Shown piece after piece: positions 3,539 to 33,435 of a DNA stretch of 64,000 nt. The notes beneath the pieces were generated by a model. That model made no database searches. It saw only the letters and a program-made list of their open reading frames with translations, and was not told the DNA's origin. Made by a program: the position numbers and the translations under genes. This DNA is from Lentzea tibetensis (GTDB lineage: Bacteria; Actinomycetota; Actinomycetes; Mycobacteriales; Pseudonocardiaceae), in NCBI RefSeq assembly GCF_007845675.1, contig NZ_VOBR01000001.1, forward strand, positions 186,001 through 250,000. Reading direction: 5' to 3'. How positions within the stretch are numbered: the first letter of the stretch is position 1; every line of letters starts with the position of its first letter.

Positions 3539-5020
3539 TCAGGCGCCGGGCGGGCTGACGTAGCCGGAGATGAGCACGTTGCGGCTGCCCGCGCGGGCGG
3601 TCGCCGGGTTGATCGTCCTGAGCGTCACGCGCTCACCGGTGCTGTTGCCGTCGACCGTCGTGATGGTGCCGTTGCCGTTGACCGCGACGACCACCGAGAC
3701 GTGCCCGCCGGTACCGGAGCCGGGCGCGCCGTACACCGCCCAGTCGCCGACCGCCGGGTTGCCCACCCCGGACGAACGCGGCTTGAACAGCCCGCGCTGC
3801 TGGCCCCACGTGCCGAGCGAGGTCGCGACCCACTGGCCGCGCGGAACACCCTTGATGCCGGCCGCTTCCCACGTCCAGGTCGCGAACATGGCGCACCAGT
3901 CGTACTTGACGCACGGGCCGTACTTCTCGCACTGCGGCTTGCCGACGCCGACCTCGCCGCGGGCGATGTTGCCGATGTGCGTGCGCAGCGACGTGGAGCC
4001 GCCGAGCAGGAACGTCGAGACGTCCGCCTTGCGGTCGCCGTTGAAGTCGCCGATGCGCGGCGTCTCGTTGTTGGCGGCGAAGAAGTCGTGCCACTTGACC
4101 GACGTGCCGGTGAACCTCGCGCCGTCCGACAGCGCCACGAACACGTCCGCCGCACCGCCGCGGGTGAACGTCGCGATGTCCGCCTTGCCGTCACCGTTGA
4201 AGTCGCCGACCTCGGGGACCTCGGCGCCCATCGCGAACCAGTCGTGCCACTTCTGCGTGGTGCCGATGAACTTCGAGCCGTCCGACAGCGCCACGTACAC
4301 GTCGGCGTCGTCGCCGCGGGTGAAGGTGACGATGTCGTCCTTGCCGTCACCGTTGAAGTCACCGATGTCGAGGATCTCGCCGCCGATGCCGAACCAGTCG
4401 TGCCACTTCTGCGACGTGCCGACGAAGCCGGAACCGGTCGACAGCGCGACGTACACGTCACCGGTGTTGCCGCGGGTGGCGGTGGCGATGTCGTCCTTGC
4501 CGTCGCCGTTGAAGTCACCGACCAGCGGCACCTCGCCGCCGATCGCGAACCAGTCGTGCCACTTCCAGCCGTCCTGGACGAACTTCCCACCGTCCGAAAG
4601 GGACACGTACACGTCGCCCGCGGTGCCGCGGGTGAACGTCACGACGTCGTCCTTGCCGTCACCGTTGAAGTCACCGACCAGCGGGGTCTCGGCTCCCACC
4701 GCGAAGTGGTTGTGCCAGACGGCGCTCTGCCCGAACCCTCCGCCACCGGACAGCGCGACGTAGGTCTTCCCCGCGTCACCTCGGGTGAACGTGACGACGT
4801 CGTCCTTGCCGTCACCGTTGAAGTCGCCGGTCTGGACGACCTCGTTGTCGAGCCCGAACCAGTCGTGCCACTTCCAGGAGTTCTGGACGAACTTCGTGCC
4901 GTCCGAGAGCGACACGTACACGTCGCCGGTCGCGTCGGCGGCTCTCGCCGGGGACGCGGTGGCCACGGTCAGCGCGGCGAGGCCGCCCACCGCGACCGCG
5001 AGCAGTTTCTTCCTGAGCAT
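3539..5020 (-). CDS. Secreted CHAP-domain amidase/peptidase with N-terminal FG-GAP propeller
   Basis: A signal peptide (MLRKKLL..., cleavage near ARA) is followed by FG-GAP repeats to about residue 350 and a C-terminal CHAP domain. The CHAP domain shows the catalytic cysteine in [10 protein letters not shown] and the histidine in GHVSVVV, the NlpC/P60-like pair used to cut peptidoglycan stem peptides or amide bonds. The repeats consist of an N-terminal half unit lacking the DFNGDG loop, five full 52-residue units and a C-terminal half unit lacking the WHDWF part. The two halves could pair to close a circularly permuted propeller. The start at 5020 has GGGGGAAG upstream; frames extending to 5098 lack a signal peptide at their start. 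It lies 23 bp after the GH73 gene. Confidence 0.87.
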
Positions 5021-5043
5021 TGGTCTTCCCCCTCTTGCGTGAT

Positions 5044-6582
5044 TCACAGAACTGCGGGAGCCGGGATCTCGCCCTCGTAGGCGAACCAGTCGTGCCACTT
5101 CTGCGACGTGCCGGTGAAACCGGAACCGGTCGAGGTGGCCACGTAGACGTCCGCGGCCGGGCCGCGGGTGAAGGTGATGATGTCGTCCTTGCCGTCACCG
5201 TTGAAGTCGCCGACACCGGGCACCTCGCCGCCCATCGCGAACCAGTCGTGCCACTTCACGGTGGTGCCGGTGAACTTCCCGCCGTCGGACAAGGCCACGT
5301 AGACGTCCGCGGTGTCGCCGCGGGTGAACGTCACGATGTCGTCCTTGCCATCACCGTTGAAGTCCCCGATCGCCGGGATCTCGGAGCTGGCGGCGAACCA
5401 GTCGTGCCACTTCAACGAGGTGCCGCTGAAGCTCGACCCCGTCGAGAGCGCGACGTACACGTCGGCGGTGGCGCCGCGGGTGAAGGTGGCGATGTCGTCC
5501 TTGCCGTCACCGTTGAAGTCACCGATCGCGGGGATCTCCGCGCCGGCGGCGAAGAAGTCGTGCCACTTCAACGAGGTGCCGCTGAAGCTCGACCCCGTCG
5601 AGAGCGCGACGTACACGTCGGCGGCGTCGCCCCGAGTGAACACGGCGATGTCGTCCTTGTTGTCGCCGTTGAAGTCGCCGACGGCCGGGATCTCCGAGCC
5701 CATCGCGAACCAGTCGTGCCACTTGACCGACGTGCCCGAGAAGCCGGACCCGGTCGACAGCGCCACGAACACGTCCGCGGTGGTGCCCCGGGTGAACGTC
5801 GCGACGTCCGCCTTGCCGTCACCGTTGAAGTCACCGGTCAGCGGGATCTCACTGCCCGCGGCGAACCAGTCGTGCCACTTCTGCGACGTGCCGCTGAAGC
5901 CGGACCCGGTGGAGGCGGCCACGTACGCGTCCGCGGTGCTGCCACGGGTGAACGTCGCGATGTCTTCCTTGCCGTCACCGGTGAAGTCGGTGTTGCCACT
6001 GCTGATGATCAGCTCGGCAGGCCCCGACGGCGGCGGGCCGCCGCTGTCGAAGCGGTAGAGGTTGTGGTCCTTCATCAGCTTGACGACTTTTTCGCCGTAG
6101 CTGCCGTCGGTCGCGTAGACCTTGCCGATCTCGCGGGCGAACCGGTCCGGGTCGTTGCGGTACGGCAGCGCGTGCGCGTACGACGGGCTCGACGTGAGCA
6201 GCCTGCCGTGGTCGCGGAACGAGTCGCGCACGTTCGCGAACACGCGGAAGTACGCGGTCACCGTGTGGCAGCCGGGCGTGCACTCCTGCGTCTGGTACGC
6301 GCGGCACCGGATGGCGATCGGACCGGGCCGGTCGGCCGCGGCGCACTTCAGGCCGTGCTGGTTGTTGTCCTCACGGGCGAGTTTGCTCTCGCCCGAACGG
6401 GACTCGAGGATCGCCTGGGCGATGCTGACGGACGCGGGCACGGTGAACTCGGCCTTCTCGGCCTGCGCGTGCCCCGCGACGGAGTTGATGTAGCCGGGTG
6501 TGTCCGCGTGCGCGGCACCCGCCGACGCGAACATGATCGACAGCGCGGCCGCGAGGCCCGCTGCCAGTGCTCTAGCGGTCAT
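5044..6582 (-). CDS. Secreted glucosaminidase (GH73-like) with FG-GAP propeller
   Basis: A signal peptide (residues 1-26, AHA cleavage) precedes a FlgJ/LytG-type glucosaminidase domain (about 30-180). The [13 protein letters not shown] segment contains the conserved catalytic glutamate. A proline/glycine linker leads to six FG-GAP units of 52 residues that end the protein. The FG-GAP loops (DxNGDGxxD) are calcium-binding. This is the first gene of the operon; the CHAP and GH172 genes follow at short spacing, so a cell-wall hydrolase pair and a polysaccharide hydrolase would be co-expressed. The ribosome site before the ATG is weak. Two of the repeats are nearly identical in DNA (5401-5468 and 5557-5624). 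Confidence 0.87.
5401..5624. repeat. Near-identical 156-bp repeat units inside the GH73 gene
   Basis: A run of about 68 bases starting at 5401 recurs identically at 5557, an offset of 156 bases or exactly 52 codons. It is the nucleotide image of the protein FG-GAP repeat. Identity at silent positions points to recent duplication or gene conversion rather than only protein-level conservation. Confidence 0.8.
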
Positions 6583-7013
6583 GGTGAGAACGCTAGGGGC
6601 GGGTTCTCAAGGAATTCTGCGAACGCCCTGCGAGCGGCAGCTCAGCGGCACCGGCCGATGTCCCGCGCCTGCCCGCCGGGCGCGGGCGCCCGCCCGGCGG
6701 AGAACCACAGGCCATCGGGAAAGAGGCACAACGGCAGGCGGGATGCACGGAAGAAGAGACCAGGCCGGCCACGGACCGGCAACCACGGACTCAGCGCGAC
6801 CAGAACAACGAAAGACGACCACCGGACCGGACCACGGTGCCAAGCCACCCAAAATCTCGGTACGAGTGACGCCGACGGAGGAGGCATCACTCGTGGTCCG
6901 GGCGAAGCCCGGCAACCCCGCGGCGACCAGCCCCACCCAACCCTGTTTACGAAACTGTCGCGTATCGTAAATCACAGCGACCGGAGCCCGTTCAGCCGGG
7001 ATGATCGGAGGCC
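6583..7013. other. Divergent intergenic region, 431 bp
   Basis: This region lies between the start of the GH73 gene (minus strand) and the SGNH gene (plus strand), so it should hold two divergent promoters. I see no convincing coding frame. The one clear element is the inverted repeat at 6946-6971; the rest is unstructured GC-rich sequence. Confidence 0.6.
6946..6971. promoter_or_regulatory. Inverted repeat, possible operator before SGNH gene
   Basis: TTTACGA (6946-6952) and TCGTAAA (6965-6971) form perfect 7-nt arms with a 12-nt spacer, 42 bp before the SGNH start codon. The local A/T-rich arms in very GC-rich surroundings resemble a repressor site, for example TetR type. No regulator gene is adjacent. 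Confidence 0.4.
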
Positions 7014-8600
7014 ATGAGGGCGATCATGGTTTCAATGGCGGTGGTGGTGGCGACAGCCGCCCCCGCGGCCGCAAGCGCCGGCGGCGACCCGCTGGTGCTC
7101 GACGTGGACATCACCCCGGCTTGCGGGAAACCCGCGCCGGGCCGGGTGAGCATCTACCACCCGACAGGCCTGTCGACGCAGGTGGAGTGGCGCGTCCGGT
7201 TAGGCGGCGAAACGAAGACGGGCACGGTGTCGATGGACCGGTCCGTGGCGAGAGCGGAGTTCACGCTCCCCGTGGGAACCGGCGAGGTGCTGGTCGACGC
7301 GCGCAGGCCGGGCGGCGCGTTCGGCCCGGTGTGGCGCGAGGACGTGCCGCCGACGTGCGACCCGGTGAACGTCGTGTCCGTCGGCGACTCGGTGGTGTGG
7401 AACCAGGGCGTCGAGCCGGACAAGAAGTTCCCGCGGCTCACCGCGAAGCTGCTCGGCGAGCAGACCGGTCGCGGCTACACCCACCGGGACTACTCGATCT
7501 CCGGCGCCGTGCTCGACGCGCCGGAACTGCCGAAGGGCAACGACGACAGGCGCTGCCTGGACGAGGCGTACCTCCAGGACCCGGACCAAGACGGCGAGAT
7601 GGAGCTCGGCGAGGTCACCGCGCAGATGCCGGACGTGTTCTGCCAGCTCGAACGAGCGGGCGCCGCGGGTCAGGACATCGACCTGGTGATCCTCAATGGC
7701 TGCATCAACGACATGGACCCGCTGCTGGGCATCCCGTTCGGCATCACGCCCGGCACCGAGGACGTGCCGAACGCCGTGCGACGTGAGTGCGGCGGTGTCG
7801 GCGCGGCCGCGACGAACCCGGCCGAGGACGTGCCGTACTTCAGCGGCGCGAAGGTCGGGTACGGCGGCCGCGGGATCAAGGCGGCCATCGAGAAAGCGCA
7901 TTCCCTGCCGGGCCACCCGAAGGTGCTCGTCGCGGACTTCTACTACGCGCTGAGCCGGGCGAGCGGCAAGCCGCCGACGAGCTACTGCACCGACCGCGGG
8001 TTCACCGCGGCGGTCGCGCAGGAGTGCGTGCAGCGCATCGGCCGGGCGCCGCTGCGCTACGAGCAGTTCACCCGGTACTCGGCGGCGGAGTACCGGCGCG
8101 CGGTCGACGAGGCCAACGCGGCGTCGGGCACGCCGTACGCGGTCGCGGGCGACGGGCTGTTCACCGTGGACAACGCGGCGTTCGCCAGCAACCCGCAGGT
8201 GTGGCAGTTCCCCACCGAGGACCCGATCTCGGTGCTGCGACGCCACGCCTGCCCGGAGTTCAGCCCCACCCCGCCGCAGTGCCTGACCGCCGCGCTCGCG
8301 CACCCCAACACCGCGGGCTCGCGCCGGTACGCGGAGAGCTTCCTGCTCAACCCGAGACTGCGCGGCTGGTTCGGCCTGCCGGGCGACGACGTGCCGCTCA
8401 CGACGACGAGGGACGGCGACACGCTGCACCTGACGGCCAAGCCGGGCAGCACGTTCCGCTGGTTCTTCGGCGACGGCACGATGCGCGTCACCGACGAGCC
8501 GACGACCTCCCACGTCTACACCGACGCCGGTCCGCACATCCCGCGCGTGATCGTCGACGACCGCACGCTCCAGGAGGGAAATCCGACAGTCATCGGATGA
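7014..8600 (+). CDS. Secreted SGNH/GDSL-like hydrolase with C-terminal PKD domain
   Basis: The ATG at 7014 follows GGAGG. A signal peptide (about residues 1-22) leads to a beta-rich N-terminal part (25-115) and then an SGNH-like domain. Block I is VVSVGDSVVW with Ser126 as likely nucleophile. Block III is LNGCINDMD with Asn232, and a block V histidine occurs in LAHPNTAG (His430). The aspartate normally three residues before that histidine is alanine, so the triad is incomplete or supplied elsewhere. A PKD-type beta domain (about 465-525, WFFGDG) ends the protein. The role is probably esterase or lipase-like action on extracellular acylated substrates. One rare TTA leucine codon occurs at 7200-7202, so expression may depend on the bldA tRNA. 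A hairpin terminator follows. Confidence 0.75.
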   Translation: MRAIMVSMAVVVATAAPAAASAGGDPLVLDVDITPACGKPAPGRVSIYHPTGLSTQVEWRVRLGGETKTGTVSMDRSVARAEFTLPVGTGEVLVDARRPGGAFGPVWREDVPPTCDPVNVVSVGDSVVWNQGVEPDKKFPRLTAKLLGEQTGRGYTHRDYSISGAVLDAPELPKGNDDRRCLDEAYLQDPDQDGEMELGEVTAQMPDVFCQLERAGAAGQDIDLVILNGCINDMDPLLGIPFGITPGTEDVPNAVRRECGGVGAAATNPAEDVPYFSGAKVGYGGRGIKAAIEKAHSLPGHPKVLVADFYYALSRASGKPPTSYCTDRGFTAAVAQECVQRIGRAPLRYEQFTRYSAAEYRRAVDEANAASGTPYAVAGDGLFTVDNAAFASNPQVWQFPTEDPISVLRRHACPEFSPTPPQCLTAALAHPNTAGSRRYAESFLLNPRLRGWFGLPGDDVPLTTTRDGDTLHLTAKPGSTFRWFFGDGTMRVTDEPTTSHVYTDAGPHIPRVIVDDRTLQEGNPTVIG

Positions 8601-23768: not shown

Positions 23769-23862
23769 CGCCGCACTGCCAACCCCCGCAGTGCCAACCG
23801 GGCGCGGCCCCCGAGCCCAAACCGGCGGCCGAACGATCAGGACAAACTTTCCCGGAGGGCAG

Positions 23863-23995
23863 GGGGTGGGGAGGGGCTCGCTGATCAGGCGAAGCCTTGC
23901 CACATCGACAATGCCTTGTCAAGGCAGCTTTTCCGCCTTGACAAGGCATTGTCGATGTGGCGACCTCTGGTGATCAGCGAACCCCTCCCCACCCC
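23863..23995. repeat. 133-bp near-perfect palindrome
   Basis: Outer arms of 14 nt (23863-23876 with 23982-23995), middle arms of 9 nt (23879-23887 with 23971-23979) and inner arms of 26 nt (23900-23925 with 23935-23960) are all perfect. They surround a 9-nt loop, AGCTTTTCC. Only about 10-12 nt on each side between middle and inner arms do not pair. The inner arm itself contains the palindrome GCCTTGTCAAGGC. It ends 45 bp before the next start codon. It could be a terminator, a miniature mobile element or a recombination site. Confidence 0.85.
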
Positions 23996-24040
23996 ACACC
24001 GCAAGCCCCCACGCTGCAACACCACCCCGCAACCAGGCGC

Positions 24041-24847
24041 ATGATGACAACCGTGCGCAACCGCCTGTTGATCGGCCTGGCCACAACGACCACCATCGTG
24101 GCCGTGGTCCTAGCAGCAGCATTCGCGTTCCAACGCAAACTCATCTACCTGCCGACACCAGGCCCACTCCCCCACGCCGCGGACGTGATCCCAGGCGGAA
24201 GGGACGTAACCCTCCACACAAGAGACGGCCTACATCTGACCGCCTGGTACTTCCCGCAGAAGAACGCCAAAGCCACAGTCCTGGTAGCCCCCGGCAACGC
24301 AGGCAACCGCTCCCTGCGCACCCCGCTGGCCAAGGCACTAACCGCACGCAACCTGTCGGTACTGCTGCTCGAGTACCGCGGCTACGGCGGCAACCACGGC
24401 CACCCAACAGAAGAGGGCTTGGCCCACGACGCCCGAGCAGCCCGCACCTTCCTCATCAACGAGGGCGCCACCAAGCTCCTGTACGTGGGCGAAAGCCTGG
24501 GCTGCGCCGTGGTGACCGAACTGGCGACCGAACATCCCCCGGCGGGCATGGTGCTGCGCTCCCCGTTCACCGACCTGGCCGAGGCGGGCAAGGTCCACTA
24601 CCCGTTCCTCCCGCTGCGCCTGCTGCTACTCGACAAGTTCCCCGTCAAGGAACAGGTGTCACGACTCAACGTGCCCATCACGGTCGTGTACGGCGCGAAG
24701 GACACCGTCGTCCCACCCGAGCAGAGCAAAGAGGTGGCCGAGGCGGCACGGGGCGAGGCCGTCGAGGTGCCGGGCGCGGACCACAACGACCTCGTCCTGC
24801 TCGACGGGCCGCAGCTCATCGACGCCGTCGCAAAGCTGGCGGGCTGA
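24041..24847 (+). CDS. Membrane-anchored alpha/beta hydrolase (Bem46/ABHD13-like)
   Basis: The 268-residue protein starts with a single membrane helix (about residues 8-30) and then a serine hydrolase fold. The nucleophile elbow is GESLG (VGESLGCAVV), the acid is in YGAKDTVVPPEQS and the histidine in GADHNDLV. This matches the Bem46-type hydrolases anchored by an N-terminal helix. Substrate unknown. ATG 24041 or 24044 are both possible, with only a weak AGG upstream. Monocistronic; it follows the palindrome. Confidence 0.8.
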   Translation: MMTTVRNRLLIGLATTTTIVAVVLAAAFAFQRKLIYLPTPGPLPHAADVIPGGRDVTLHTRDGLHLTAWYFPQKNAKATVLVAPGNAGNRSLRTPLAKALTARNLSVLLLEYRGYGGNHGHPTEEGLAHDARAARTFLINEGATKLLYVGESLGCAVVTELATEHPPAGMVLRSPFTDLAEAGKVHYPFLPLRLLLLDKFPVKEQVSRLNVPITVVYGAKDTVVPPEQSKEVAEAARGEAVEVPGADHNDLVLLDGPQLIDAVAKLAG

Positions 24848-25025
24848 AGCAAGGCGAGATCTTTCCGATTTAAGAAACAAGAAACATCGGCGACACATGG
24901 AAAGTATTGCGGTAATGCACCAATCGAGACCGCACTCAACCTTCTGGCACACCAACACTGGTCTTTAGTTACTTTTGCGCCTGCCTAAGCTGCGCCACAC
25001 CGCCGGCATTGACGGGAGCTCACAC
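24848..25025. promoter_or_regulatory. A/T-richer promoter region of the NRPS-terpene operon
   Basis: These 178 bases are markedly richer in A/T than the neighbours, as expected for a promoter in this genome. A loose inverted pair CCGAT...ATCGG (near 24868-24893) could be an operator. I cannot assign -10 and -35 boxes with confidence. Confidence 0.35.
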
Positions 25026-26156
25026 GTGTGGCAGGACATCGACCAATCCCACGTGATAGTGATCGGGGCAGGCTCCGCAGGTCTCGCCACCGCAGCAAAC
25101 CTGCAGGCCAGAGGCATGCACGTGACGGTTCTGGAACGCGGAACCAAGCCGGGTCAAAGCTGGTTGCAGAGACGTGAGAATCTCCGTCTCAACACGATCC
25201 GCGGATTGTCGGCTCTACCTGGTCGAAGTATTGACAGAAGCGCGGGAACGTGGCCGAGTGGCGCCGAATACGCGCGCTACCTGCACACATACGCCACCCA
25301 GCACGAAGTGCGAATTCGTCACAATTGCGATGTCGTGCAAGTCGCGCACGGACGTCGTGCCAATTGGGACGTGCGGCTCGCGGACGGGGACACCATCCCG
25401 GCCGACGTGGTCGTCGTGGCCACCGGGTGGGCCGCCGAACCGCACATCCCGCTGTGGCCCGGTGAGTTCACGAAGAAGCTGCTGCACGCCGCCGACTACC
25501 GGAGCCCCGAGGACTTCGCCGGGGCCAGCGTCCTCGTGGTCGGGTCCGGCAACTCCGGCGCCGAGATCGCCGTCGAGCTGCTCGGCACCGCCGCCGAGGT
25601 GCGGATGGCGGTGCGCACTCCCCCGCTCCTCGTCCCCGCCGACCCGAAGCTGCACCGCGTCGGCGCGCTGTTCTGGTGGCTGCCCGAGGACCTGGTCGAC
25701 AAGCTCAGCATCAGCACTCACCGAAGCCACTACCGGGACCTCGCCGAGCACGGTCTGCCGATTCCGACCGAGGGCGTGCACGCGCGGTTCAACCGGGACG
25801 GCACCTCACCCACCGCCGACCGCGGGTTCGCCGACGCCGTCCGAAGTGGACGGTTGACGATCACGGCCGCCGTCGCTGCGCTCACCGGTGACGGCGTCCA
25901 GCTCGCGAACGGCCAGGAAGAACGTCCCGACGTCGTCATCGCGGCCACCGGGTACCGGCCCGCGTTCGCCGGGCTCGTCGGGCACCTCGGAGTGCTCGAC
26001 GAGAGGGGATTCCCCGCGAAACAAGAGGAAGCCCTCTACTTCGTCGGCGCGCCGTCGCTGCGCGGCGATCTGCACGTGCACGGCCAGCAGGCACGACGTG
26101 TCGCCAGAGCCATCTCGACCACCCCTGTGAACACGAAGAGGACCAGCGATGTCTGA
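25026..26156 (+). CDS. FAD-dependent monooxygenase (flavin-containing/YUCCA-type)
   Basis: GTG at 25026 is chosen because GGGAG sits 7 bp upstream; a TTG start at 24975 has no ribosome site. The 376-residue protein has an FAD-binding GAGSAG motif near residue 12, an NADPH-binding VVGSGNSGAE motif in the middle and the C-terminal ATGYRP motif. All are hallmarks of class B flavoprotein monooxygenases, which hydroxylate N or C atoms or insert oxygen beside ketones. It is the first gene of the NRPS-terpene operon and overlaps the NRPS gene by 8 bp. It probably tailors the amino acid or the terpene. Confidence 0.88.
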   Translation: MWQDIDQSHVIVIGAGSAGLATAANLQARGMHVTVLERGTKPGQSWLQRRENLRLNTIRGLSALPGRSIDRSAGTWPSGAEYARYLHTYATQHEVRIRHNCDVVQVAHGRRANWDVRLADGDTIPADVVVVATGWAAEPHIPLWPGEFTKKLLHAADYRSPEDFAGASVLVVGSGNSGAEIAVELLGTAAEVRMAVRTPPLLVPADPKLHRVGALFWWLPEDLVDKLSISTHRSHYRDLAEHGLPIPTEGVHARFNRDGTSPTADRGFADAVRSGRLTITAAVAALTGDGVQLANGQEERPDVVIAATGYRPAFAGLVGHLGVLDERGFPAKQEEALYFVGAPSLRGDLHVHGQQARRVARAISTTPVNTKRTSDV

Positions 26157-29100
26157 CCAGAACGTGGAGTTCCCCGCGCTGACGCTGCCCGCGTTGCTCA
26201 GGCGGGCCGCCGGCCGGTCACCCGACGCGATCGCCGTGCGCGACGCCAGGAGCGCGCTCACGTACGCCGACCTGGACGCCGAGATCCACCGCACCGCCTG
26301 GTACCTCAAGGAACAGGGCGTCGAACCGGGCGTGCACGTCGCCGTGTCGCTGCCACGGGGCGTCGACGCCGTCGTCACCCAAGCCGCGTTGTTCACGCTC
26401 GGCGCGGTGTACGTGCCGGTCGACGCGAGCTATCCCGCCGAGCTGCTCACCAGCATGATCACCGACGTCGACGCGCGGTTCCTCATCGCGTCCACCGGTC
26501 AGGTGATCACGTCGCCCGCGACGCGGATCGACCTCGACGACCACGCCGTGCGCAGGCAGATCGCGACGCGTTCCGCCGAGCTGCTCGACCGCGACCCGCA
26601 GCTCGGCGACGTCGCGTACGTGATCCACACGTCTGGCACGTCGGGCAGGCCCAAGCCGGTCGCCGTGTCGCACCGGGCGATCGCGAACTCCACGCAGGCG
26701 CGTCTGCACCGCTACCCGGAACGGGTCACCGGGTTCGCGCTGATCTCGCCGATGACGTTCGACTCCAGTCTCGCCGGCATCTGGTGGACGCTGCTGTCCG
26801 GCGGCGAGCTGCGGCTGCTGTCTCCCGGCACGTCCGACGCGGTCACCGAGCTGGCCGAGGCACTCACCAGCGGCGACGTCAGCCACACGCTGCTCACCCC
26901 GTCACTGCACCGAATCCTGCTGTCCACTGTGGACAGGCCATCGGACGTTCTGCGGCGGGTCGTGGTCGCCGGTGAGGCGTGCCCGCAGGAGCTGGTCGCC
27001 GAGCACCACCGCGTCCTGCCGGACGTCGAGCTGGTCAACGAGTACGGCCCGACCGAGGCGGCCGTGTGGTGCTCATCGGCGACACTCGGGCCTGGGGCGG
27101 ACGTCGTGGTCGGCACGCCGATCGCGAACACCGAGCTGTGGATCGTCGACGAGAACGGCCAGGTCGCCGAGGCAGGCGAACTGGGTGAGGTGGGCGTGGC
27201 GGGCGCGAACCTCGCCAACGGCTACCTCAACGATCCCGAACTGACCGCGGCGCGGTTCGTGCCGCACCCTCGGGACCGGAGCCGGCTCGTCTACCGCACC
27301 GGCGACCTCGGCCGGTGGCGGGCCGATGGTCAGCTGGAGCTGCGCGGACGGCTCGACGAGCAGATCAAGGTGCGCGGCTACCGGGTCGAGCCGGACGGCG
27401 TCGCCGCCGCGCTGCGCGAGCACCCCGGCGTGCGGGACGCGGTGGTCGTCGCCGGGAACGGACTCGTCGCGTACGTCGTCCCCGAGTGGGACGAGCGCAC
27501 GGCCGCCGATGAGCTGCGCGACCGGTGGACCGGCGTCGTCGACGACCTCGACCATCACGACGAGCGCAGCGGCTGGACCAGCAGCTACACCGGTGAACAA
27601 CTGTCGGAAGCGGACATGGCCGAGTGGGTCGCCACGACCGTCGCGCTCGCCGAGGAGCACGACCCGCGGTCGGTGCTCGAGCTCGGCTGCGGCACCGGCC
27701 AGCTGCTCACCAGGCTCGCGCCCGGCCGTGCCCGCGTCGTCGGACTCGACGTCAGCAGGCCGACGCTCGACGCGCTCGCGGAGCGGCTCATCGCGGCCGG
27801 ACTCCACCACGTCGACCTGCGCCACGGCGACGCCACCGAAACCGCCGGGCTCACCGGCTTCGACCTGGTGCTGTGCAACTCGGTCACGCAGTACTTCCCC
27901 GGCGAGGCCTACCTCGCGGACGTCGTCACGCGGGCGCTCCACGCGGGCCGCCGCGTCGTGTTCGGCGACATCAGGGACCTCGCGCTGCAGGACGCGTTCC
28001 ACGCCGCGGTCGTGCTCGCCAACGCGCCGGACGACGCACCGGTGACGCGGCTGCGCGAGCAGTGGCGCAAGCGCGTCGAACGGGACCCGCAGCTCCTCGT
28101 GGACCCGAGATGGTTCACCAGCGCCATCACCGGCAGGCACGTCGACATCCGCCCCCGCGGCGGCGAGCGGCGCAACGAGATGAACGACTTCCGCTTCGAC
28201 GTCGTCGTGTCGGACGGCCCGGCCACGGAGATCGCCAACTGGCACGAATGGCCGGGTGACTTGGACGGCCTGCACACGTTGCTGATCGGTGACACGCCCG
28301 TTGGCCTGCAACGGATTCCCAACCGGCGCACCGCGGGCGCGTGCGCGGTGCGCGCACAGCTGGCAGGCACGGGCGACCTCACGGTCGCCGACCTGCGCAG
28401 GCTCGCGGACGACGCCGAGCTGGTCGCCGTGCACCCCGCCGAGATCTCCGCACTCGCCGAAGAGCTCGGCTGGACCGTCCGGTTCTCCAGGGCAGCGGGC
28501 TGGCCGGACGGCGAGTTCGACGCCGTGTTCCTCAGGCCGGGCGACGACACCCTGATCTGCTGGCCCCAGCCGCAATCAGGCGGTGACCTGATCAACGCGC
28601 CCGTGCACCGGCACGTCATCACGTCCGCGACGGAGAACCTGCTCCCGGACGTCCGCGGGCACGCCGCGACCACGCTCGCCGAGCACGAGCGCCCGGCCAC
28701 GTACGTCGTGCTCACCGAGCTGCCGCTCACCGGCCACGGCAAGGTCGACCGGGCCGCGCTGCCCGCGCCGTCGGCCGCACGCCCGGCGCTCAGCACGCCG
28801 TACGAGAGGCCGGTGCGGCCGATCGAGATCAGGATTGCCGAGATCCTGGCCGACCTGCTCGGCATCGACCGGGTGGGCAGGCACGACGACTTCGTCGAGC
28901 TGGGCGGCGACTCGCTGCTCGCGGTGCGCGCCGCCGTCCGGCTCGGCGACCACTTCGGCGTCGCGCTGCCGGTGCGCACGGTGTTCGACGCGCCGACGGT
29001 CGACGGCCTCGCGCAGGTCATCGCCACGGCGCCGAGAACCGCAGCCGCGCCCGCAGCAGTGGACACCGGAAGTACGAAGCTGCCGCTGAGCGTCCCGCAG

Positions 29101-30405
29101 ATGCTGTTGTGGGGCCACGACCTCCAGCTCGACCGCGGTGTGGTCCCCGGCCCCGCGTGCACCCTGTCGATCAACTACCGGATCACCGGACCGCTCGACG
29201 AGGACGCGCTCTCCCGCGCCGTCGACGAGCTGGTGCGCAGGCACGAGGCGTTGCGCGTCACGCTGTCCTTCGACGGCGGCCCGCTCGAGGCGTTCCAGGT
29301 CGTCAACGAGCCGCCGAAGAACGTGCTGCGCAAGGAGAACGCCGACCGGATGGACGCCACCGACGCGCTCGTCCGGCTCCAGCGCGCCACCCCGCTCAAC
29401 CCCGCCGAGGGCAGGGTCTTCGCCACCGAGCTGATCACCAGCTCGGACGTCGAGCACCTGCTGGCGCTGCGGATGCACCACATGATCGCCGACGGCTGCG
29501 CGGTCGAGGTCGTCGAACGCGACCTCACCGCGCTGTACAACGGAATCGAGCTGCCGGAGGCGCCGAACTACCGCTCGGTGCTCGCCCGTCAGCCCGCCGC
29601 GCCCGGCCCGGACGACCTGCCGTACTGGACGGAGAAGATCGCCGGGTGCCGCCCGGCCGTGCTGGTGCCGCCCGCGCACCTGGAGACGGTGACCGAACCG
29701 CACAGCACGCAGGTTCGCAGCCTCGTGCTGCCCGCCGAGCAGGCACAGCCGTTCCTGACGTTCGTGCGCGGCCAGAAGATCACGCTCTACAGCGCGCTCT
29801 ACACCGTCCTCGTCTCGCTCATGGCCGCCGACACCGGCGACCCCGAGGTGCGGCTGATCTCGGTCAACGGCGCCCGCCGCGACGCGGATCTCGAACGCAC
29901 CGCGGGCATCTTCCTCGACGGCGTCCTGCTGCGGCACGAGACCAAACCCGGCCAGTCCATCAGGCAGGCGTTCGCCGACGCGGGCGCCACCGTGCGGGAC
30001 GCGCTGCGCCACGACGGCATCCCGTTGCTGGGCCTCACCCAGCTGCTGCCGGACATGGAGGCGGCGTTCGGGTTGTCCCAGTCGCTCGTGTTCGAGGTGC
30101 TCGGCGAGCCCTACAGCCTGCGCCTCGACGGCTGCGACGTGCGGCGCAGCGACTACTTCATGGAGGACTTCGCGGGCGAGGTCTTCCAGATCCCGTGCCA
30201 GCTGTGCGTCATCGGCCGCCAGGAGGGCGACGAGATCAGGCTGATCGGCATGTACGACCCCGCCTACGTCCCGTCGTCCTATGTGGACGGACTGCTGGAG
30301 CGCATGCGGGACGTGGTCGTCGCGAGCACCGAGGACGTGTCCGCACCGCTGGACGGCGTCGTCGAGGCGGACGCGTGGATGCTCTCCCTGCAGGACAACG
30401 CGTGA
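26149..30405 (+). CDS. NRPS, interrupted adenylation domain with methyltransferase, PCP and terminal condensation domain
   Basis: The protein has 1418 residues. The adenylation domain (about 10-450) shows A3 HTSGTSGRPKP, A5 NEYGPTE, A7 YRTGDLGR and A8 GRLDEQIKVRGYR. A SAM methyltransferase (about 465-690, VLELGCGTGQ at 509) follows the A8 core, a position linked in known interrupted A domains to N-methylation. A10 (PLTGHGKVDRAALP, about 861) then completes the A domain. The PCP has LGGDSLLA with phosphopantetheine Ser922. The C-terminal condensation domain has RRHEALR and HHMIADG (His1111). A hand alignment gives the specificity code D-S-A-L-V-A-E-V-W-K, which I do not assign. There is no thioesterase; release may be by C-domain transfer to a nucleophile. 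ATG 26149 has GAGGA upstream. Confidence 0.92.
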   Translation: MSDQNVEFPALTLPALLRRAAGRSPDAIAVRDARSALTYADLDAEIHRTAWYLKEQGVEPGVHVAVSLPRGVDAVVTQAALFTLGAVYVPVDASYPAELLTSMITDVDARFLIASTGQVITSPATRIDLDDHAVRRQIATRSAELLDRDPQLGDVAYVIHTSGTSGRPKPVAVSHRAIANSTQARLHRYPERVTGFALISPMTFDSSLAGIWWTLLSGGELRLLSPGTSDAVTELAEALTSGDVSHTLLTPSLHRILLSTVDRPSDVLRRVVVAGEACPQELVAEHHRVLPDVELVNEYGPTEAAVWCSSATLGPGADVVVGTPIANTELWIVDENGQVAEAGELGEVGVAGANLANGYLNDPELTAARFVPHPRDRSRLVYRTGDLGRWRADGQLELRGRLDEQIKVRGYRVEPDGVAAALREHPGVRDAVVVAGNGLVAYVVPEWDERTAADELRDRWTGVVDDLDHHDERSGWTSSYTGEQLSEADMAEWVATTVALAEEHDPRSVLELGCGTGQLLTRLAPGRARVVGLDVSRPTLDALAERLIAAGLHHVDLRHGDATETAGLTGFDLVLCNSVTQYFPGEAYLADVVTRALHAGRRVVFGDIRDLALQDAFHAAVVLANAPDDAPVTRLREQWRKRVERDPQLLVDPRWFTSAITGRHVDIRPRGGERRNEMNDFRFDVVVSDGPATEIANWHEWPGDLDGLHTLLIGDTPVGLQRIPNRRTAGACAVRAQLAGTGDLTVADLRRLADDAELVAVHPAEISALAEELGWTVRFSRAAGWPDGEFDAVFLRPGDDTLICWPQPQSGGDLINAPVHRHVITSATENLLPDVRGHAATTLAEHERPATYVVLTELPLTGHGKVDRAALPAPSAARPALSTPYERPVRPIEIRIAEILADLLGIDRVGRHDDFVELGGDSLLAVRAAVRLGDHFGVALPVRTVFDAPTVDGLAQVIATAPRTAAAPAAVDTGSTKLPLSVPQMLLWGHDLQLDRGVVPGPACTLSINYRITGPLDEDALSRAVDELVRRHEALRVTLSFDGGPLEAFQVVNEPPKNVLRKENADRMDATDALVRLQRATPLNPAEGRVFATELITSSDVEHLLALRMHHMIADGCAVEVVERDLTALYNGIELPEAPNYRSVLARQPAAPGPDDLPYWTEKIAGCRPAVLVPPAHLETVTEPHSTQVRSLVLPAEQAQPFLTFVRGQKITLYSALYTVLVSLMAADTGDPEVRLISVNGARRDADLERTAGIFLDGVLLRHETKPGQSIRQAFADAGATVRDALRHDGIPLLGLTQLLPDMEAAFGLSQSLVFEVLGEPYSLRLDGCDVRRSDYFMEDFAGEVFQIPCQLCVIGRQEGDEIRLIGMYDPAYVPSSYVDGLLERMRDVVVASTEDVSAPLDGVVEADAWMLSLQDNA

Positions 30406-31034
30406 GCGCCACGAAGGTGCGCAGCCACCCGATCTACGCGTCGCTCTACGACCGCCTGAACGAGTACGCGGAGGTCGACTGGCTCGGCCGGACCCGGCAG
30501 TGGGTCGCGGACCGGGCCAAGGGCACCGTGCTGGAGATCGGCGCGGGCACCGGCATGAACCTGCCCCGGTTCCACGACGTCGACGAGGTCGTCGCCGCCG
30601 AGCCGGATCCCGCGTACCGCAAGCGGCTCCTGCGCAGGGTCGGCGAGGCGACGGTGCCGGTGCGCGTCATCGACGCGCCCGCCGAGCGCCTGTCGTTGCC
30701 GGACGACAGCGTCGACACGATCGTCAGCACGCTGGTGCTGTGCTCGGTCGACGACCCGGCGCGGGCCGTCGCCGAGATGGCGCGGGTGCTGCGTCCTGGC
30801 GGTGAGGTGCTGCTGTTCGAGCACCTGCGCACCGGTGAGCTGAAGCAGACCGTGTGCGTCCCGGTGTGGCGGTTCCTGGTCGGCGGCTGCCGGCTCAACC
30901 GCCCGACGATCGAGACCGTCCGCGCGGGCGGCTTCGCCGTCGAGGAGATCGACAGCCTCGTGCCACCCGGCACCCCGAAGGTCATGGGCCCCTTCGTCAC
31001 CGCGGTCGCACGCCCGAACGGAGCCTGCCGATGA
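30402..31034 (+). CDS. Class I SAM-dependent methyltransferase
   Basis: The 210-residue protein carries motif I VLEIGAGTGMNLPRF (about residue 44), a DAPAERLSLPDDS acidic segment and the LRPGGEVLLFEHL motif of the Methyltransf_11/UbiE-like family. The GTG start overlaps the NRPS stop as GTGA, and its stop overlaps the P450 start as ATGA, so translation is coupled. It is probably an O-, N- or C-methylating tailoring enzyme of the pathway, distinct from the methyltransferase inside the NRPS. Confidence 0.87.
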   Translation: MSATKVRSHPIYASLYDRLNEYAEVDWLGRTRQWVADRAKGTVLEIGAGTGMNLPRFHDVDEVVAAEPDPAYRKRLLRRVGEATVPVRVIDAPAERLSLPDDSVDTIVSTLVLCSVDDPARAVAEMARVLRPGGEVLLFEHLRTGELKQTVCVPVWRFLVGGCRLNRPTIETVRAGGFAVEEIDSLVPPGTPKVMGPFVTAVARPNGACR

Positions 31035-32344
31035 CTCTTCCCGTGCTGCACGGACGTCTGCCGCTCGTCGGCCATGCGCTGACGTTGCTGCGCAACCCGC
31101 TCGAACTGCTGCGCGGCGCCGACGCGGCCGACGACATCGCGGTGCTCTACGGCGGACCGAAGCCGTGGTACCTGGTCAGCAGCCTCGAGCTGGCCCGGCA
31201 GATCTTCGTCGAGGACGCGCGGAAGTTCGACCGCGGCATGCAGTTCGACGCGATGGCCCGCATCATCGGCCGCACCTCGCTGACCGCCGACGGCGAGTTG
31301 CACAGGCAGCGCCGCCGCCTCGTGCAGCCGGCGTTGGACAAGCGGCGCGTGCCGGAGTACGCGCCGATCGTGGCCGCGGCCGCGCAGGAGCTGATGGAGT
31401 CGTGGACGGACGGCCTGCGCCTGCCGCTGCACGACCTGATCAGCGACGTGAACTTCACGTTCGTCACCAGGACGCTGGTCACCGCGGGCATCGACGAGCA
31501 GCGGGTCGCCGACTTCCGGCGCTACCTGCCGCTGGCGCTGGCCGGGGTCACCAAGTCGATGTACGACCCGACCGGGCTGGCCAGGTTCGTTCCCACGCCG
31601 GGAAACCTGCGCACCAACCACGCGATCGCCCAGGTGCGCGCCGCGATCGGCGAGGCCGTCGCCCACCACCGGGCGAGCGGCAGCGCCGACCACGGCGACG
31701 TGCTGTCGATGCTGATCCGCGACGGGAAAGACCTGTCGGACAGCGAGATCTGCGACGAGGCGATGGCGTTGCTGACCGCGGGCACCGAGACGATCACCTC
31801 GGCGCTGTGCTGGGCGGTGCACCTGCTCACCCGGCACCCCGAGGTCGAGCAACGGCTGCACACCGAGCTGGACGAGGTGCTGTCCGGCCGCACGCCGAGC
31901 ACGGAGGATCTGCCGAAGCTCGACTACACCCGGCGGTTCTTCACCGAGGTCATGCGGCTCTACCCACCTGCGTGGATGGTCTCCCGCCGCACGCTCACCG
32001 AGGTTCGGCTCGGTGACGTGCTCGTGCCCGCGCGCACGCCGGTGTTCGTCTGCGTGTACCTGGTGCACCGCAGGCAGGAGCTCTACCCCGACCCCGAGCG
32101 GTTCGACCCGGACCGCTGGTTGCCGGAACGGTCGAAGTCGCTGCCGCGCGACGCGTACCTGCCGTTCGGCCACGGCCACCACCGCTGTCCCGGCGACCAC
32201 TTCACCTGGGCCACCGCCAGCCTCCTGCTGGCGTCCATCGCCCAGAAGTGGCGGCTGCGGGCGATCGGCGATCCGGTGACGCCCACGACCACCCCCACGC
32301 TGCGCCCGTCCCACCTCGACGTCGTTCTCTCCCCGCGCCCGTGA
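31031..32344 (+). CDS. Cytochrome P450
   Basis: The 437-residue P450 has the I-helix oxygen-activation motif AGTET (250-254), the ExxR pair Glu306/Arg309 in EVMRLYPPAW and the heme loop FGHGHHRCPG with Cys386 as axial ligand. The sequence around the ExxR motif (RLYPPAWMVSRRT) resembles P450s that oxidise terpenes and fatty chains. It overlaps the methyltransferase by ATGA and is followed after 14 bp by the terpene synthase, so hydroxylation of the terpene hydrocarbon is the likely role. A hydroxyl made here could be the acceptor for the NRPS condensation domain (inference). Confidence 0.92.
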   Translation: MTLPVLHGRLPLVGHALTLLRNPLELLRGADAADDIAVLYGGPKPWYLVSSLELARQIFVEDARKFDRGMQFDAMARIIGRTSLTADGELHRQRRRLVQPALDKRRVPEYAPIVAAAAQELMESWTDGLRLPLHDLISDVNFTFVTRTLVTAGIDEQRVADFRRYLPLALAGVTKSMYDPTGLARFVPTPGNLRTNHAIAQVRAAIGEAVAHHRASGSADHGDVLSMLIRDGKDLSDSEICDEAMALLTAGTETITSALCWAVHLLTRHPEVEQRLHTELDEVLSGRTPSTEDLPKLDYTRRFFTEVMRLYPPAWMVSRRTLTEVRLGDVLVPARTPVFVCVYLVHRRQELYPDPERFDPDRWLPERSKSLPRDAYLPFGHGHHRCPGDHFTWATASLLLASIAQKWRLRAIGDPVTPTTTPTLRPSHLDVVLSPRP

Positions 32345-32358
32345 CAGAGGAGATCCCT

Positions 32359-33435
32359 GTGCGACAAACCCTGCCTGCCCCGACCCGGTCCGACACCGAC
32401 TTCGTGGTGCCCTACCACCCGAACCTGCGGTTCGACATGCCCATCGCGTACCGGGGCATGAACCGGCACATCTGGGCCGCGCACGACCGCATGTTCGACT
32501 GGCTCACCCGGTTCGGGATGCTCCCGAACTCCGGCAACCTCAGCGTGCTCAAGGGCACCCGCTGCGACCTGCTGACCGGGTGCTACTACCCCGACGCGGA
32601 CCTCAGGACCCTCACCCTGCTCGACGAGTTCATGGGCTGGGGCTTCGTGTTCGACGACCAGATCGACGACGCGGGCTGCGGTCTCGACGCCGACCGCACC
32701 GCGGCGGTCGTCGACGAGTTCGTCCACGTCCTGCAGGACACGCCCGCCGCCAAGCTGACTCCGGCGGGGCTGGCGCTGGCCGACTGGTGGGAGCGGATGA
32801 CCGCGACGTCGGTGCAGGAGAGCTGGCGGCAGCAGTTCGCGAACTCCACGATCCTGTGGCTGCAGACGTACGCGCTCGAAGCTCGGCACTGGGCCGACGG
32901 GTACGAGCCGACGATGGAGGAGTACCTGACCTACCGGTACCTCTCGATCGCCAGCTGGCCCTACAGCGACCTCACCGAGATCGCCAACCACGCCGAGCTG
33001 CCCGCCGAGGTGCGCGCGCTGCCCGCGTTCCAGCGGATGCGGCTGCCGATGGCCATGCACGTGGGCCTGGCCAACGACGTCATCTCCTACGAGAAGCAGC
33101 GCGACCTCGGCAGGCAGAGCGACGCGATCACGATCCTGATGAGGGAGTCCGGCTGCACGGCCGAGGAAGGACTCGCCGAGGTGGTGTCGATGGTCAACGG
33201 CCACCTCGCCGAGTTCTTCGTCGCCGAGGAGCAGTTCCTCAGCCAGGTCCGCGCCGCCGGGTTCGCGCCTGAGGTGCAGCGCGACGCGCACATCGCGACC
33301 CAGTCGCTGCGCACGCACATCCGGTCGTCCGTGGAGTGGGAAATCCTCGCCGTCGAGCGGTTCGGCGACGACACCTACTACCTGCGCGGGCACGACCCGA
33401 GCGTCGCGGACATCCTGGTGAACCCCGGTTCCTAG
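32359..33435 (+). CDS. Class I terpene synthase (bacterial sesquiterpene cyclase type)
   Basis: GTG 32359 follows GAGGAGA at good spacing; 358 residues, usual for bacterial cyclases. The first metal motif is FDDQIDD (Asp99, Asp100, Asp103). The second motif reads NDVISYEKQ, with Asn239 and Ser243 in place but Gln247 where the NSE triad normally has glutamate. A pyrophosphate-sensor arginine is plausible in YLTYRYLSIA, but no clear C-terminal RY pair is seen. It cyclises a prenyl diphosphate (probably farnesyl) after ionisation by Mg2+. It is the last gene of the operon and overlaps the convergent carbonic anhydrase gene by 4 bp. Confidence 0.88.
   Translation: MRQTLPAPTRSDTDFVVPYHPNLRFDMPIAYRGMNRHIWAAHDRMFDWLTRFGMLPNSGNLSVLKGTRCDLLTGCYYPDADLRTLTLLDEFMGWGFVFDDQIDDAGCGLDADRTAAVVDEFVHVLQDTPAAKLTPAGLALADWWERMTATSVQESWRQQFANSTILWLQTYALEARHWADGYEPTMEEYLTYRYLSIASWPYSDLTEIANHAELPAEVRALPAFQRMRLPMAMHVGLANDVISYEKQRDLGRQSDAITILMRESGCTAEEGLAEVVSMVNGHLAEFFVAEEQFLSQVRAAGFAPEVQRDAHIATQSLRTHIRSSVEWEILAVERFGDDTYYLRGHDPSVADILVNPGS

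Follow-up and report, generated by a model that had tools for sequence, protein, structure and literature searches.

A five-gene operon of Lentzea tibetensis predicted to attach an N-methylated amino acid to an oxidised terpene

Introduction

Single-module nonribosomal peptide synthetases (NRPSs) that act on terpenes have been described from fungi: AneB (aculenes) and ThmA (CJ-12662), both built of adenylation (A), thiolation (T) and condensation (C) domains, esterify sesquiterpene alcohols with proline and tryptophan, the amino acid being chosen by the A domain and the terpene by the C domain, as described in passages of PMC10720950. The same passages name FlvI (flavunoidine) as a related fungal single-module NRPS, report that H794 and D798 of the AneB C domain are needed whereas Q793 is dispensable, and cite a title that links a flavoprotein monooxygenase (FMO) and a Meisenheimer rearrangement to paeciloxazine. 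Among the matches listed in the open-access full-text literature, outside which most subscription papers and all preprints lie, we found no bacterial single-module NRPS acylating a terpene. Here, we analyse a 64,000-nucleotide stretch of the actinomycete Lentzea tibetensis (contig NZ_VOBR01000001.1, positions 186,001 to 250,000; hereafter, the window), which carries, at window positions 25,026–33,435, five coupled plus-strand genes encoding an FMO, an NRPS, a methyltransferase (MT), a cytochrome P450 and a terpene synthase (TS). We propose that this operon probably makes a terpene–amino acid hybrid, with an N-methyl-aminoacyl group, predicted to derive from histidine, on a P450-oxidised terpene.

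Like AneB and ThmA, as far as these are described in the passages cited above, the window NRPS is a single A-T-C module that is clustered with a terpene cyclase and a P450 and retains the catalytic His and Asp in its C domain, and the QHxxxD variant of AneB is paralleled by QHMIADD in one relative of the window enzyme (locus L023). Unlike AneB, ThmA and FlvI, the window enzyme is bacterial, contains an N-methyltransferase (N-MT) inside the A domain, and is predicted to use histidine rather than proline, tryptophan or dimethylpipecolate. The likeness to the fungal enzymes is perhaps convergent.

Results

The operon and its conservation in a second Lentzea genome

The sequence-only reading of this DNA had described a compact operon, and its five open reading frames, strand and spacing were all confirmed: the FMO and NRPS genes overlap by 8 bp, the NRPS and MT genes at GTGA, and the MT and P450 genes at ATGA, whereas a 14-bp gap separates the P450 and TS genes. 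Each class is backed by Pfam, which was run on selected open reading frames picked by a GC-position heuristic, with locus L037 (see below) left out. The first gene (25,026–26,156) encodes an FMO-type protein of 376 aa with two GxGxxG motifs, a match to Pyr_redox_3/FMO-like models and the PDB relatives 4usq and 4c5o. The NRPS of 1418 aa (26,149–30,405) matches AMP-binding, Methyltransf, PP-binding and Condensation, and is followed by a UbiE-like class I S-adenosylmethionine (SAM) MT of 210 aa (30,402–31,034; Methyltransf_11), a P450 of 437 aa with the motif FGHGHHRCPG (31,031–32,344; p450 and NCBIfam models) and a class I TS of 358 aa with the motifs DDQIDD and NDVISYEKQ (32,359–33,435; Terpene_syn_C_2, AlphaFold2 model and fold search).

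The genome search suggested by the same reading recovered the identical five-gene order in Lentzea sp. NBRC 105346 (locus L011, 2838–11,047), with protein identities of about 62–74% (FMO 62%, MT 73% and TS 71%) and a pN/pS ratio (nonsynonymous to synonymous) of 0.45–0.58 per gene between the two loci. The sequence-only reading knew of no bacterial pathway with this exact gene set; the set is not unique to this genome. In genome searches, which scored only the best 4–5 candidates per genome and hence give lower bounds, the TS was found in 2 of 25 genomes of the genus at E ≤ 1e-40 (own genome included), in 3 of 391 genomes of the family at 1e-30 and, at 1e-45, in 1 of 394 genomes of the class, namely its own; the third family genome (G376, locus L029) carries a TS of 28% identity. 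A scan of genome contigs with the TS, confined to close relatives, gave a single locus, L011. No match to the C domain was found in plasmids at 1e-30, and plasmid tblastn matches to the NRPS, TS and MT were all below 60% identity. Within the own genome, which has 11 Terpene_syn_C_2 places and 86 Condensation matches, only the window TS lies less than 10 kb from a Condensation match. A chance cluster was rejected, given the five-gene order kept in L011 and a clade of C domains that tracks terpene synthases, as follows.

A C-domain clade that accompanies terpene synthases

At E ≤ 1e-60, the terminal C domain was found in 9 of 391 genomes of the family, at one place each. A profile built from eight members matched 4 of 392 genomes in the class, comprising the own genome, G658, and partial matches (~330 of 459 positions) within giant NRPS frames in G706 and G666, the one from G706 falling outside the family in the tree; at 1e-70, the profile matched 2 of 392 genomes in the genus of G658 (G658 and G994). 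Near-full-length relatives are thus present in at least 11 genomes (9 of the family and 2 of the G658 genus). Mapping of Terpene_syn_C_2 genes in the own genome and the 10 others, which covered this one family of terpene synthases (PF19086), showed that exactly 7 of the 11 have such a gene within ~3 kb of the C domain; three of the remaining four have none on the same contig (two of these contigs are only ~50 kb long), and in G103 the nearest is ~130 kb away.

A maximum likelihood tree was computed for 23 C domains. Its 10 family members form one group (support 100/98), inside which the seven terpene-linked members form a group of their own (100/99) that excludes the three non-terpene members, eight other C domains of the own genome and five from locus L035. 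The A-domain tree (17 rows) also recovers the family (100/100), but the terpene-linked group is weak (68/68). The contrast between the two trees suggests that it is mainly the C domain that follows the terpene, as would be expected from the domain swaps in fungi. Locus L025, the NRPS of which is frame-shifted relative to that of L026 and the C domain of which is 97% identical to its L026 counterpart, was left out of the trees and of the counts of A-domain codes.

We examined ~20 kb around each of these loci. A P450 is encoded in each of the seven terpene-linked loci (window, L011, L022, L023, L024, L034 and L037). L022 has an NRPS with MT, a terpene synthase and a P450; L023 has a P450, an NRPS without MT, a polyprenyl synthase and a terpene synthase; L024 has an NRPS without MT, a polyprenyl synthase, a terpene synthase and a P450; and L034 and L037 share an EF-hand gene, an NRPS with MT, a membrane-like protein, a terpene synthase and a P450. 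Apart from that of L011 (71%), the terpene synthases are only 19–24% identical to the window TS, which suggests that this type of NRPS goes with varied terpene scaffolds. Between L022 and the window, the P450s are 56% identical and the TSs only 24%, a pattern that reads as a P450 kept while the TS diverged or was exchanged. The loci that are not terpene-linked pair the NRPS with an NAD_binding_4 reductase (L025 and L026) or contain NAD_binding_4, FMO, NRPS, MT and MMPL transporter genes with nearby FAD_binding_3 and amidohydrolase genes (L027 and L028).

Several side observations concern these loci. The EF-hand-type gene lies upstream of the NRPS at 5493–6041 in L034 (Pfam) and at 5923–6540 in L037, where it was recognised by eye, as was the membrane-like gene; in both loci, the latter is placed between the NRPS and terpene synthase genes. 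In L024, the stretch read of the NRPS frame (4040–7171, minus strand) is broken by a single in-frame stop at its codon 151, which is either a sequencing error or decay. L027 additionally carries a chorismate-binding plus GATase gene.

Domain organisation of the NRPS

The conserved A-domain motifs named A8 and A10 bracket the inserted N-MT. The A-domain core (26,200–27,462; Pfam and alignment to LgrA), which bears the specificity code DSALVAEVWK, is followed by the N-MT insert (27,490–28,698, limits approximate; Pfam and the motifs ELGCGTG, CNSVTQYFP and NEMNDFRFDV), the A10 end of the A domain (28,702–28,773; LPLTGHGKVDRAALP, from translation and motif reading), a peptidyl carrier protein (PCP) domain (28,831–29,022; ELGGDSL, from translation and Pfam) and the terminal C domain (29,074–30,402; HHMIADG, from Pfam, AlphaFold2 model, fold search and tree), which ends the protein. 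In residues, Pfam places a single AMP-binding core at 18–360, with A8 at ~400, A10 at ~864 and the carrier domain at 895–958. The order A-MT-A-PCP-C given previously therefore stands, except that "A-MT-A" is one A domain interrupted by an N-MT; two separate A domains were rejected on the basis of the single AMP-binding core and the positions of A8 and A10. As also anticipated, Pfam matched no thioesterase in the NRPS, nor a reductase, and only A(MT)-PCP-C is seen.

A SAM-dependent N-MT between A8 and A10, the hallmark of N-methylating interrupted A domains, is thus present in the window NRPS. The interrupted A domain of 5wmm (926 aa), with its N-MT likewise between A8 and A10, aligns to residues 12–873 in one stretch, and TioS A4-M4-A4 is reportedly another such domain; the window enzyme differs from this group in being one module that ends in a terminal C domain. 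The AlphaFold2 model of the C domain (8 sequences; predicted local distance difference test score, pLDDT, 87.9) has the C fold, and the four best Foldseek chains belong to Txo2 (two chains), the terminal C domain of HtmB2 and SgcC5. SgcC5 (C-1027) and the HtmB2 domain share this fold with the window C domain at only 21–22% identity. SgcC5 reportedly acylates a non-peptide alcohol with an amino acid bound to a PCP; it is free-standing, whereas the window C domain is fused behind A-MT-A-PCP, with a terpene as its putative partner. The second His and the Asp of HHxxxD are present in the window C domain and in 10 of 10 members read.

Predicted amino acid

A domains of the bleomycin and nikkomycin type, which we take to be histidine-activating, sit in peptide or nucleoside pathways and not in terpene pathways. 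We read the ten specificity positions with an assumed numbering anchored on the alignment to LgrA. The code of the window, L027 and L028 is DSALVAEVWK, and that of L011 is DSALIAEVWK; the latter code is named in a paragraph of PMC12283262 on histidine-activating domains and is matched at 10 of 10 positions by L011 and at 9 of 10 by the window. The ten-letter identity of L011 also serves as a check on the position mapping, and because the L011 code equals the published one, histidine is predicted as the most likely amino acid of the window enzyme. The codes of L022 (DTAMVSEVWK), L023 (DIALVCEVWK), L024 (DAADLGEVWK) and L026 (DPALIGEVWK) share the Glu at position 322, which is kept in 8 of 10 members read. 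According to passages of PMC10099666, the authors of the corramycin study assume an NRPS N-MT domain that methylates a histidine side chain; this would likewise be an NRPS-methylated histidine, but in a non-terpene pathway, and in view of it the methylated nitrogen of the window product may be either the alpha-N or an imidazole N.

The FMO and the separate methyltransferase

Class B flavoprotein monooxygenases carry two GxGxxG motifs and an FxGxxxHxxxY fingerprint. Both GxGxxG motifs are present in the window FMO, and the fingerprint region reads FSGRLLHAADY in L011 and FTKKLLHAADY, with one Gly missing, in the window. Relatives of both the FMO and the separate MT (METHYLTRANSFERASE) occur together in the window, L011, L027 and L028, and no intact relative of either was found in the ~20 kb examined of each of the other seven family loci. 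The L027 and L028 relatives are 48% (FMO) and 61–63% (MT) identical to those of the window, whereas the ten best plasmid matches listed for the MT reach only 38–45%. Since both genes accompany the L027 and L028 NRPSs, near which no terpene synthase was found, the FMO and MT probably act on the aminoacyl part. Action on the terpene appears less likely: the pair is present at these loci without a TS found and absent from the terpene-linked L022, L023, L024, L034 and L037. A dimethyl N-oxide, or something related to it, could result from built-in N-methylation, an additional methylation and N-oxidation.

Short FMO-like fragments are found immediately upstream of the NRPS in L025 (5554–5702) and L026 (6460–6537), with 61–63% identity over 26–41 residues to the L027 FMO; these are probably relics of a lost FMO gene. 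L034 carries a different flavoprotein, FAD_binding_3/Trp_halogenase-like, at 3729–5297.

The terpene synthase and the P450

The class I fold, the Terpene_syn_C_2 domain and the Asp-rich DDxxD motif (DDQIDD, residues 99–104) are all present in the window TS. The nearest profile is that of isoafricanol synthase, at 135 bits against a cut-off of 500. In structure, the AlphaFold2 model (7 sequences; pLDDT 78.8, with residues 1–32, 335–345 and 354–358 below 50) is closest to two sesquiterpene enzymes, T-muurolol synthase and caryolan-1-ol synthase; the top 30 fold matches also include 1,8-cineole synthase and a diterpene synthase, so that substrates of other chain lengths are conceivable. The NSE triad of class I terpene synthases reads N-D-x-x-S-x-x-x-E. 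This pattern is kept in L023 (NDLLSFRKE), L024 (NDVISYPKE) and L034 (NDTTSYNKE), L037 being left out of the comparison, whereas the window and L011 TSs read NDVISYEKQ, with Gln for Glu. The window enzyme is hence a putative variant class I synthase that may have an altered activity. In L022, the TS beside the NRPS (7030–8094, minus strand) has EDQFD and NDVRAVERG, so that its second metal motif is largely lost. The nearest NCBIfam models of the window P450 are albaflavenone and pentalenene oxygenases, which it matches below their cut-offs.

Surroundings of the operon

A hydrolase gene lies 178 bp upstream of the operon, and a convergent carbonic anhydrase gene downstream overlaps the end of the TS gene by 4 bp; neither was matched in the 21-kb L011 locus. 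A larger cluster in the window was rejected, the tested neighbours being sugar-uptake-type genes, carbonic anhydrase, pirin and regulators. No sigma-70-type promoter or terminator was found in a scan of 24,700–25,100. Further upstream, at 23,855–24,010, is a nested inverted-repeat element of ~156 bp, with inner arms of 27 nt that are 100% complementary around a 9-nt loop and outer arms of 25 nt (96%). With 40 of 90 candidates scored, it recurs at ~40 places of the own genome (78 matches when both strands are counted), several of them at contig ends, and is a dispersed hairpin repeat.

Discussion

From the observed gene content and order, their conservation, the domains, the C-domain clade, the A-domain code and the co-occurrence of FMO and MT genes, we infer the reactions, their order, the type of bond and the amino acid as follows. 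The TS would cyclise a prenyl diphosphate, probably farnesyl diphosphate, and the P450 would place a hydroxyl on the terpene. The A domain would load one amino acid, most likely L-histidine, onto the PCP, and the built-in N-MT would methylate it, by default at the alpha-N, with the imidazole N as a possible alternative. The terminal C domain would then take the aminoacyl group off the PCP and join it to the hydroxyl of the terpene, which would free the ester (an amine acceptor would give an amide instead). Finally, the separate MT and the FMO would alter the aminoacyl part, for instance through a further methylation and a subsequent N-oxidation. The central idea of the sequence-only reading, that one amino acid is loaded and N-methylated by the NRPS, the C domain of which passes it to an oxidised terpene, gains support from the L011 operon, from the C-domain clade with a TS in 7 of 11 genomes and from the logic of the fungal A-T-C enzymes.

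Several observations weigh against this reading. The 18 kb around the 28%-identical TS relative in G376 contain no relative of the NRPS, FMO, MT or P450, and the window TS lacks the canonical Glu of the NSE triad, with the L022 enzyme departing further from the class I pattern. The L011 C motif is HHIVADA, not ending in DG as in the window. Histidine does not extend to the whole terpene clade, given the differing codes of L034 (DAPLVGAVWK) and L037 (DAPVLAAVWK), which may specify another amino acid, and its assignment in the window draws on a single passage of PMC12283262. The terpene grouping of the A domains is weak, the mapping of terpene synthases covered one family, and the genome counts are minimum values.

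These points bear on three alternatives. The most substantial, though still doubtful, keeps the architecture but replaces histidine with another N-methylated residue esterified to the terpene; variation of the codes within the family, including those of L034 and L037, and the dependence of the code mapping on assumed residue positions speak for it, and the full match of L011 to the published histidine code together with the Glu at position 322 speaks against it. It is unlikely that the NRPS instead makes a free N-methyl-histidine derivative, released by hydrolysis, as a small-amine amide or by self-condensation through the C domain, while the TS and P450 constitute a separate sesquiterpene pathway and the operon is only a transcriptional neighbourhood. 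Such a division would accord with L025–L028, where the same type of NRPS has no TS found in ~20 kb, so that the NRPS can work on other scaffolds; however, the terpene-linked C domains split firmly from the rest, a TS adjoins the NRPS in most of the genomes, and the unit of five genes persists in two Lentzea genomes with different flanks.

Slightly less probable again is a reversed order of events, amino acid first and terpene second, in which a TS with the altered N-S-Q motif acts late or differently, for instance by cyclising a prenylated amino acid. The altered motifs of the window, L011 and L022 enzymes would suit such a role, but L023, L024 and L034 of the same clade keep N-S-E, polyprenyl synthases are encoded within L023 and L024 themselves, the operon lacks a prenyltransferase, and both DDQIDD and the class I fold are preserved. 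The transfer of an N-methyl-aminoacyl group to a P450-oxidised terpene thus remains our preferred reading.

The sarcodictyins and eleutherobin of corals are imidazole-acrylate terpene esters. A bolder extension, to which we assign little likelihood, is that actinomycetes own a family of terpene-histidine ester synthetases, in the five-gene version of which the MT and FMO would turn the N-methyl-histidyl ester into an N,N-dimethyl N-oxide; a Cope-type elimination of the latter would yield a urocanoyl terpene ester, and hence a bacterial route to esters of the coral kind. A bacterial histidine-derived imidazole-acrylate unit of this kind occurs in the imidacins, in which urocanate from histidine ammonia-lyase primes a polyketide, but no terpene is involved, according to passages of PMC11301661.

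To conclude, the Lentzea operon may be viewed as a bacterial version of a biosynthetic logic known from fungi, and its predicted product is a histidine-bearing terpenoid. Both the predicted histidine and the FMO/MT pair suggest terpenoids with an imidazole group, a type of chemistry that, to our knowledge, has otherwise been described from corals. If the proposal is correct, small expressible enzymes for terpenoid esters would become available, along with a simple rule for genome mining, namely this C-domain clade, and in bacteria, represented here by five genus groups from two families, terminal C domains would have become specialised for terpenes as acceptors.

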